From the NCBI RefSeq assembly GCF_036226745.1, contig NZ_CP109013.1, forward strand, positions 4,154,001 through 4,218,000: a stretch of DNA of 64,000 nucleotides, read 5' to 3'. This document shows, piece by piece, positions 15,252 through 34,284 of this stretch. How positions within the stretch are numbered: the first letter of the stretch is position 1; each line of letters begins with the position of its first letter. This DNA is from Streptomyces sp. NBC_00683 (GTDB lineage Bacteria; Actinomycetota; Actinomycetes; Streptomycetales; Streptomycetaceae). The position numbers and the translations under genes were made by a program. The notes under the pieces are model-generated. The model was given only the letters and a program-made list of their open reading frames with translations, did not search any database and was not told the origin of the DNA.

Positions 15252-15587
15252 GTGGCTCAGCGCGTAGTGGTCACGCTCTCCGACGACATCGACGGGGGAG
15301 AAGCGGCGGAAACGGTCACCTTCGCCCTGGACGGGAAGTCGTACGAGATCGACCTCAATCCCGTCAACGCAAAAAAACTGCGGAAGGCGCTGGCCCCGTA
15401 CATGACGGCCGGCCGAAAGCAGACAAATGCCAGTAAGCATGGCAAGACCCCGGTGTCGTACCACCACACGTCCCTCGCGCCCGACCCGGCGGCCGTGCGC
15501 GCCTGGGCGCGCTCGCACCGGATGGAGGTGCCGGCCCGCGGCCGGATCCCCAAGAAGGTCTACGAGGCGTTCCAGGCCGCCAGTTGA
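15252..15587 (+). CDS. lsr2: Lsr2 nucleoid-associated protein
   Basis: Actinobacterial H-NS-like protein that bridges DNA, prefers A/T-rich sequence and silences foreign genes. 111 residues from the GTG at 15252, with GGAAAGGA at 15234-15241 as ribosome site. The N-terminal dimerisation domain MAQRVVVTLSDDIDG continues to about residue 60 with FALDGKSYEIDLN. The C-terminal DNA-binding domain includes VRAWARSHRMEVPARGRIPK, whose RGR is the AT-hook-like minor-groove contact. Streptomyces usually carry two paralogues; this is the one beside purS. Confidence 0.96.
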   Translation: MAQRVVVTLSDDIDGGEAAETVTFALDGKSYEIDLNPVNAKKLRKALAPYMTAGRKQTNASKHGKTPVSYHHTSLAPDPAAVRAWARSHRMEVPARGRIPKKVYEAFQAAS

Positions 15588-15659: not shown

Positions 15660-15690
15660 TTGCACAACACCCCTGCAGGTCGGCTAGAGT
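15660..15690 (+). promoter_or_regulatory. promoter of tRNA-Gly(UCC)
   Basis: TTGCAC at 15660-15665 and TAGAGT at 15685-15690, 19 bp apart, match the housekeeping sigma consensus. The expected start is near 15697, about 43 bp before the tRNA. Confidence 0.55.
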
Positions 15691-15739
15691 CTGAAGCACG
15701 CCGAAGGGCAAGGCCGAAAGGCCGGGCCTCACGCAGCGT

Positions 15740-15811
15740 GCGGGTGTAGTTCAGTAGTAGAACATCCCCCTTCCAGGGGGAAGGCGCAGTGTGCAATTCC
15801 TGTCACCCGCT
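15740..15811 (+). tRNA. tRNA-Gly (anticodon UCC), atypical D and T loops
   Basis: The acceptor stem GCGGGTG/CACCCGC, D stem GTTC/GAAC and anticodon stem TCCCC/GGGGA all pair perfectly, and the loop CTTCCAG gives anticodon UCC. The D loop AGTAGTA lacks the G18-G19 pair (canonical AGTTGGTA is seen in the neighbouring tRNA-Gly genes). The T arm GCAGT-GTGCAATT-CCTGT lacks the TTC of the normal GTTCRAnnC and has a weak stem with a T-C mismatch and an 8-nt loop. The acceptor and anticodon arms are intact and it has its own promoter, so it is not simple decay. It may serve a non-ribosomal role (see findings). Confidence 0.85.
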
Positions 15812-15891: not shown

Positions 15892-15964
15892 GCGGACGTA
15901 GCTCAGTTGGTAGAGCGCAACCTTGCCAAGGTTGAGGTCGCCAGTTCGAACCTGGTCGTCCGCT
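15892..15964 (+). tRNA. tRNA-Gly (anticodon GCC)
   Basis: A complete 73-nt cloverleaf: acceptor GCGGACG/CGTCCGC, D loop with GG, anticodon stem CAACC/GGTTG with loop TTGCCAA, and T arm CCAG-TTCGAAC-CTGG. A TAGAGT box about 25 bp upstream of the gene (15848-15853) is a candidate -10. It is a near-copy of the tRNA-Gly at 19921, with compensatory pair changes in the stems. Confidence 0.97.
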
Positions 15965-28456: not shown

Positions 28457-28540
28457 ACATACGAGGTTATCGGGGCGGACCGACAACCGGCCCCGCTCCG
28501 GGCACACCATCGGCGGGACACCACACCCCCGGGCACGCAA

Positions 28541-28630
28541 GGGCCCCCCACGCACCCGCCAGAGCCAACCTACCCTTGCTGCCTTCCGGCCCTGGGGGAG
28601 TTCAGTCAGATAGCGCCACGTGAGGGGCTG
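28541..28630 (-). ncRNA. ffs: signal recognition particle RNA (4.5S, small bacterial type)
   Basis: The minus strand carries the conserved apical loop CAGGGCCGGAAGGCAGCAAG (complement of about 28575-28594), the Ffh-binding site. The flanks can pair: CCCCTCACG near 28627 with a G-rich strand near 28549. TAAGGT at 28637-28642 (minus) is a candidate -10 with start near 28630. The position beside dnaX is typical of Streptomyces. The ends are approximate. Confidence 0.85.
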
Positions 28631-28751
28631 ACGCCCACCTTAACCGATCCCCGCCCCCCGAAGTCCACCCACCCGGCCCCCCGGGTCCGCTCCGGGACCG
28701 CTCGGAACGATCTCCGGGGGAACGTGTTCGCGAGCACTCCCCAACGTCTTG

Positions 28752-33914: not shown

Positions 33915-34070
33915 CAGCCCTTCCTCGGGGTGTCCACGCCCCGGGCGGTGTCGGACGGCAGGAGTTCCTGACTCGCCCGGTCGTGGACCGGGCTCACAGT
34001 GGCGGGACCGCGCCGGAATCTCACCGGGCTTCCTCCCATGTCGCCGTCTGGCGATGGCGGGCCGAACGGA
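33915..34070 (-). promoter_or_regulatory. cobalamin (adenosylcobalamin-type) riboswitch upstream of cobN
   Basis: On the minus strand the conserved core CCGGTGAGATTCCGGCGC continuing to GGTCCCGCCACTGT (34026-33996) is followed by the B12 box GAGTCAGGAACTCCTGCCGT (33974-33955). A C/G-rich hairpin around ggggcgtggacacccc lies next to the GAGGAAGG ribosome site of cobN, so control is probably at translation start. The outer boundaries are approximate. Confidence 0.93.
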
Positions 34071-34284
34071 CCGCCGCTAGGCATAGTAGGCGGCCAGGGG
34101 CCCGGCGTGAGGAGATGCCCCTGGACGGGACTTGTCCCGGCCGCCCGACGGCCGGTTCCCGCCCTGCGGCGGACGCGGCCGGGGACAGCAGCCCGGACCC
34201 TGGACCGCTCGCGGTTCCGGCTCCGGCCCGATGGGTGTCCTGCAGGTCACAGTCACCGTAGGACTGTGCTGCGGTCACGGTCGG

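Follow-up and report, generated by a model that had tools for sequence, protein, structure and literature searches.

The window analysed here is the whole 64,000-nucleotide stretch of Streptomyces sp. NBC_00683, which corresponds to positions 4154001-4218000 of an 8.5 Mb genome assembled as a single contig and containing 69 tRNA matches. On its forward strand, lsr2 (15252..15587; Pfam Lsr2 and Lsr2_DNA-bd), which served as locus marker, is followed by a conserved promoter-like element, TTGCAC-19-TAGAGT (15660..15690), by a putatively transcribed leader (15691..15739), by an accessory tRNA-Gly(UCC) of 72 nt up to discriminator U73, with no encoded CCA (15740..15811; Rfam RF00005), and by a canonical tRNA-Gly(GCC) as the next gene (15892..15964). 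The Rfam covariance model gives the accessory tRNA 53.5 bits (cut-off 29), against 70.1 and 69.4 bits for its two GCC neighbors in the window, which both ARAGORN and Rfam find canonical, as a sequence-only reading of this DNA had stated; four diverged relatives of the odd tRNA score 52.5-63.2 bits. ARAGORN made no call at 15740-15811 when run on the window. That reading had also given the gene a promoter of its own, and this is borne out by the pattern TTG[C/A]..-19-TA..GT, found with the same spacing upstream of the first copy in 80/80 Streptomyces loci. Identity, taken over 44 of 50 loci, falls from 0.92 in the tRNA to 0.53 in the 50 bases that follow, while the leader (0.63, 44 loci) is partly conserved at ACGCCGA and GGCCGAAAGGCC; its consensus fold holds a 3-bp hairpin only (-4.8 kcal/mol), with no clear structure. 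Elsewhere in the window, matches above cut-off to a cobalamin riboswitch (33943-34090) and a small SRP RNA (28537-28631) lie on the reverse strand.

The acceptor, D and anticodon stems of the odd tRNA are fully paired, and the anticodon UCC stands at 15772-15774 in the anticodon arm (15765..15781), just as had been noted. The two other arms require some amendment of the sequence-only reading. In the D arm (15749..15763, loop AGUAGUA), said to lack both G18 and G19, the former is indeed replaced by A (15756) but G19 (15757) is retained, and the G19-C56 combination is kept in 48/48 variants. The T arm (15786..15803) had been credited with a mismatch and an extra base, and the two are best explained together by a single U (15790) that bulges out after position 52 and before position 53; G49-U65, C50-G64, A51-U63 and G52-C62 precede it and a G53-C61 pair follows. 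The Rfam alignment has the same bulge register, and because it leaves a seven-base loop, UGCAAUU (U54 G55 C56 A57 A58 U59 U60, with C56 at 15794), U55 is replaced by G (15793). The T arm does lack TTC: this is the only one of the genome's 69 tRNA matches with a T loop other than TTCRA.

Some of the single features are more common. A51-U63 occurs in 14 of the 68 other tRNA matches of the genome and A-U at 49-65 in 17, and the pair 51-63 is G-C or C-G in all four other tRNA-Gly examined from it; of these four, Gly(CCC) resembles it most at the 5' end, where 21 of the first 24 bases are identical. The genome also holds a canonical tRNA-Gly(UCC) with encoded CCA at 5720811-5720881, of which a match at least 90% identical was found in 150/150 sampled Streptomyces genomes. 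Therefore, there is no decoding gap for the odd tRNA to fill, and the objection that it might be the sole UCC tRNA falls away. The only other tRNA match flagged for having no D-loop GG is a tRNA-Leu(UAA) (genome 5149441-5149524), which we take to be bldA. SCOt17, a tRNA-Gly(UCC) that could be either of the two UCC genes, is given among the genes with Gbn bound upstream in the available portion of one study (PMC9239103).

By nearest-neighbor rules, which take in neither modifications nor tertiary contacts, the T arm is worth about -2.8 kcal/mol in the window tRNA, whereas the arm of the canonical UCC tRNA reaches -8.1 and that of the canonical CCC tRNA -6.0. A 4-bp hairpin between tRNA columns 45-48 and 52-55 has a lower energy than the T arm in 41/48 variants, one of which (L177) was put at a disadvantage as a cloverleaf because its bulge was scored without the shift. 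For the window tRNA the fold of lowest energy contains this hairpin, so that a plain fold does not give the textbook T arm. Since it is broken in seven rows of the alignment (those of g2 and g5, with two from g7 and two from Streptomyces), we treated it as a side effect of the weak T arm.

The odd tRNA is close to universal in the genus. A sequence search matched all of 199 Streptomyces genomes, and a second search of the 49 weakest found it in 48 (85-93% identity over 72 positions) and a paralogue alone in G156, so that 198/199 genomes carry it as a full-length 72-nt match; the miss is likely an assembly gap, since no full lsr2-locus match was found in G156. The 80 compared loci contain 31 distinct sequences. 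Tandem copies, two or three, were seen in 9/135 loci, a few of them from the same genome twice, and an Lsr2-like C-terminus lies upstream in 133/135; just upstream of the odd tRNA in L101 and L347 none was recognisable. ARAGORN calls the odd tRNA in L130, L168, L172, L173 and L177 and misses it in the window, L090, L121 and L344, so gene annotation will be uneven.

Constraint on the structure was followed in 48 aligned variants from the family (47 distinct), with a 71-nt sequence one base short (L175) left out of alignment and counts, and identical repeats such as L174 not added. The groups g5 and g3 were taken as Embleya and Streptacidiphilus, to which identical or 99% identical FemX proteins pointed. 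The UCC anticodon, C2-G71, U73, A51-U63 and the extra T-stem base are each present in 48/48 variants. G49-U65 is found in 44/48, and the four remaining variants, three of Streptacidiphilus and one of g10, none of Streptomyces, have A49-U65. The bulge is a C in one Streptacidiphilus row and is shifted by one pair (51/52) in the g10 row. A18 occurs in 45/48 variants, always together with G55 (A/G); the other three combine G18 with U55 (G/U), no variant is mixed, and this coupled change may have been a single event. The three G/U variants, from g2 and g5 (L172, L173 and L176), have this bulge too, although their loop is a normal GUUCRA and G18 and G19 are both kept, which fixes the bulge register. 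Across the 48 variants, eight pairs change on both sides, all five of the anticodon stem among them, and 99.8% of cells pair, vs 48-58% with slid partners; none of 500 shuffles attains the counts for pairs, cells or covariation. Further pair types are no more numerous than in shuffled alignments (382/500 reach the count), and for Streptomyces taken by itself the number of pairs altered on both sides is four, which 40/500 shuffles reach. Covariation is no test of the T stem, which hardly varies. The loops, then, do not vary freely as those of a pseudogene might, a prospect the sequence-only reading had raised against itself: anticodon and T arm are nearly fixed while the stems covary. As for the order of change, Streptomyces scabrisporus (now Embleya) is said, in the accessible part of one source, to have split off ahead of the Streptomyces-Kitasatospora-Streptacidiphilus clade (PMC6113628), and as Embleya has the bulge together with G18 and UUC, this suggests that the bulge came first and the 18-55 change later. 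A reversal at 18/55 is possible, however, because g15, which has A/G, branches first in the FemX tree, with weak support (90/37) and a root formed by a very long paralogue branch.

For the wider search we used R1, a covariance model built on 31 variants of the odd tRNA, which scores the window tRNA at 103.9 bits and odd tRNAs at 86 bits or more, vs canonical tRNA-Gly at up to 68.5 bits in the genomes checked first, 69.9 elsewhere in Streptomyces and 73.7 in the order. Within the Streptomycetaceae, 174/249 genomes carry the odd tRNA (R1 match of 2.8e-20 or better), usually beside lsr2; counted by E-value, these are 105/105 Streptomyces and, from those further genera in which it occurs, 69 of 71 genomes, G224 and G326 being the exceptions. 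The misses in G156 and G224, which lack a full lsr2-locus match, and in G326, which is 71% complete, were not taken as losses. No R1 match above the canonical range was found in 70/70 Kitasatospora (g14) and 3/3 Peterkaempfera (g11) genomes, whose best matches are at 8.1e-15 or weaker and, in the eight Kitasatospora and three Peterkaempfera genomes where they were read, are canonical UCC genes. In the four loci read from these two genera, two canonical tRNA-Gly(GCC) genes stand after lsr2 and a UCC gene is absent. The group g14 was assigned to Kitasatospora through coordinates that L273, L277 and L278 share with named records (L294 is deposited as Streptomyces sp. CB01881), and g11 to Peterkaempfera through L261, from G229. 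Because the two genera group together in the FemX tree (support 95/86, and 93/87 in a second tree), one loss would suffice. The odd tRNA was found in 0/15 genomes from the other families of the order, where four of the best matches were read and all are canonical, and in 0/354 genomes of the class, at an E-value of 3e-17 and under stricter filters that could miss diverged relatives. A mobile or phage origin was considered and rejected, distant-mode searches giving no match in plasmid records (231-base query) or phage records (81-base query).

Comparison across the family thus shows this gene to be an accessory tRNA-Gly(UCC) of Streptomycetaceae that is functional and under selection, and its role is probably a specialised one rather than that of a broken gene. 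The reading that we put foremost, although with rather less than even confidence, is that it is a chargeable accessory tRNA-Gly, handicapped for EF-Tu, which feeds a non-ribosomal reaction, with FemX as the leading candidate. The anticodon UCC, C2-G71 and U73 are determinants for glycyl-tRNA synthetase, and with these acceptor-stem and anticodon letters kept, the enzyme would be expected to charge the odd tRNA. The bulge, the weakness of A51-U63 and an elbow contact (18-55) altered on both sides would weaken binding of EF-Tu, and the charged tRNA would then stay off the ribosome, forming a set-aside pool of Gly-tRNA; its most likely consumer would be the FemX glycine transferase, for the glycine bridge of lipid II. 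The retention of G49-U65 in most variants and of G19-C56 in all of them, like the occurrence of A51-U63 in other tRNAs of the genome, counts against such a handicap, G49-U65 being a strong EF-Tu pair according to the part available of one account (PMC4052509).

That FemX is present in this genome favours this reading, and that femX lies about 146 kb from the odd tRNA does not; FemX was matched in 45/45 family genomes tested (in G326 at 53% only). The redundancy of the tRNA and its fixed odd loops support a specialised role. As to the dedicated donor advanced by the sequence-only reading, FemX also occurs without the tRNA, being intact in 18/18 Kitasatospora and 3/3 Peterkaempfera genomes examined, none of which has an odd-tRNA match. 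The presence of FemX is thereby ruled out as a predictor of the odd tRNA, and since these genera keep the enzyme without it, FemX must be generally independent of this tRNA and at most aided by it. A donor role in the cell wall is plausible, although weakened by the Kitasatospora result. In the substrate mycelium of Streptomycetaceae the main diamino acid is either LL- or DL-diaminopimelate, and Streptacidiphilus and Kitasatospora share the same mixed chemistry, according to the accessible part of the source (PMC6113628); because Streptacidiphilus keeps the odd tRNA, its loss does not simply track diaminopimelate chemistry. A lower demand for glycine in Kitasatospora would be speculation.

Other explanations account for parts of the same evidence. 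The tRNA could serve translation as a second reader of GGA, slow but functional, with A18 and G55 replacing the normal elbow contact, and the unchanged anticodon agrees with this, since it is not obvious why a tRNA that only supplied FemX should need UCC; so do the joint change of positions 18 and 55, never found mixed, and the retention of G19-C56 and, in most variants, of G49-U65. Nevertheless, the canonical UCC gene of every sampled genome leaves such a decoder nothing to supply, the extra T-stem base is present in every variant and no other tRNA of the genome has a changed T loop, so that we hold this explanation to be unlikely, if worth keeping in view. The tRNA might instead be the donor for a Gly-tRNA-dependent reaction other than that of FemX, one absent from Kitasatospora and Peterkaempfera, which would suit the grouping of these two genera in the FemX tree and their possession of FemX without the tRNA. 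Natural-product pathways that use Gly-tRNA, of the DhpK and BD-12 Orf11 type, are sporadic, whereas the odd tRNA is nearly universal in Streptomyces, and this makes the proposal improbable in spite of the Gly-tRNA-using Fem-like enzymes, DhpK and BD-12 Orf11, that the portion seen of one paper gives for Streptomyces natural products (PMC12945691).

A regulatory tRNA-like RNA, acting as a sensor of glycine charging or as a decoy rather than as a donor, would be in keeping with the hairpin that outcompetes the T arm in most variants and in the fold of the window sequence, with the conserved promoter, and with the precedent of the Bacillus cereus tRNA-Other, as far as the part available of its description goes (PMC3399842). 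But that hairpin is broken in seven rows, and no glycine T-box target was found in the genome, whose sole T-box match (genome 6329393-6329640, reverse strand) is below threshold (41.8 bits, cut-off 93) and lies just before ileS, not a glycine gene; we regard such a role as quite doubtful. As to a decaying pseudogene, the Rfam score below those of the GCC neighbors and the miss by ARAGORN would be as expected of one, yet full-length matches in nearly all Streptomyces genomes, compensatory changes and a conserved promoter already refute it, leaving it next to no credit.

Giannouli et al. reportedly described, in 2009, a non-proteinogenic tRNA-Gly(UCC) of Staphylococcus aureus, and we found no title or abstract in the open-licence literature that we recognised as describing the structure or role of the odd tRNA of Streptomyces. 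A conserved, redundant and misshapen tRNA-Gly in tractable antibiotic producers allows a direct deletion test, for which Kitasatospora offers a natural absence, and it would provide a bacterial example of a tRNA in which the T stem is always bulged and the 18-55 contact has been replaced. Tentatively, and with the odds rather against it, we propose that the Streptomycetaceae as a family arrived at an orthogonal glycine tRNA of their own, independently of Staphylococcus and along another structural path, that of the T-stem bulge and the rewired 18-55 contact, that it diverts Gly-tRNA from the ribosome to wall synthesis, and that it was discarded in the line of Kitasatospora and Peterkaempfera. 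How aminoacyl-tRNAs are diverted from translation to the wall is called somewhat unclear in most instances in the accessible part of the literature (PMC4052509), which assigns to the Staphylococcus wall tRNAs the weak EF-Tu pairs A49-U65 and A51-U63 and the loss of G18 and G19. Like the wall tRNA-Gly(UCC) of S. aureus, as presented in the portions available (PMC4052509, PMC8007984), the odd tRNA stands beside proteinogenic isoacceptors, has altered D and T loops and A51-U63, and belongs to a host with FemX; A49-U65 is shared as well, but only by the three Streptacidiphilus rows and the g10 row. In Streptomyces two of the Staphylococcus marks are matched in part, G19 and G49-U65 being retained. 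In Staphylococcus, G18 and G19 are both exchanged (for UU or CU), as are the two strong pairs, whereas here G18 alone changes and G49-U65 mostly stays. Those same portions of the Staphylococcus account make no mention of a T-stem bulge, which is the constant mark here. One unpaired T-stem base is also found in the selC* tRNA-Cys (bulge A51a, 4-bp T stem), but selC*, in the part available of its description (PMC7609411), is an 8/4 tRNA charged with cysteine, while the odd tRNA is of the 7/5 type, carries the letters of glycine identity and bulges at 52/53, or at 51/52 in g10. The B. cereus tRNA-Other is likewise an aberrant tRNA, with an extra-translational role and a cell-wall phenotype; according to the accessible part of that report (PMC3399842), it has a Trp anticodon and is poorly charged, in contrast to the Gly anticodon and intact Gly identity letters of the tRNA described here.
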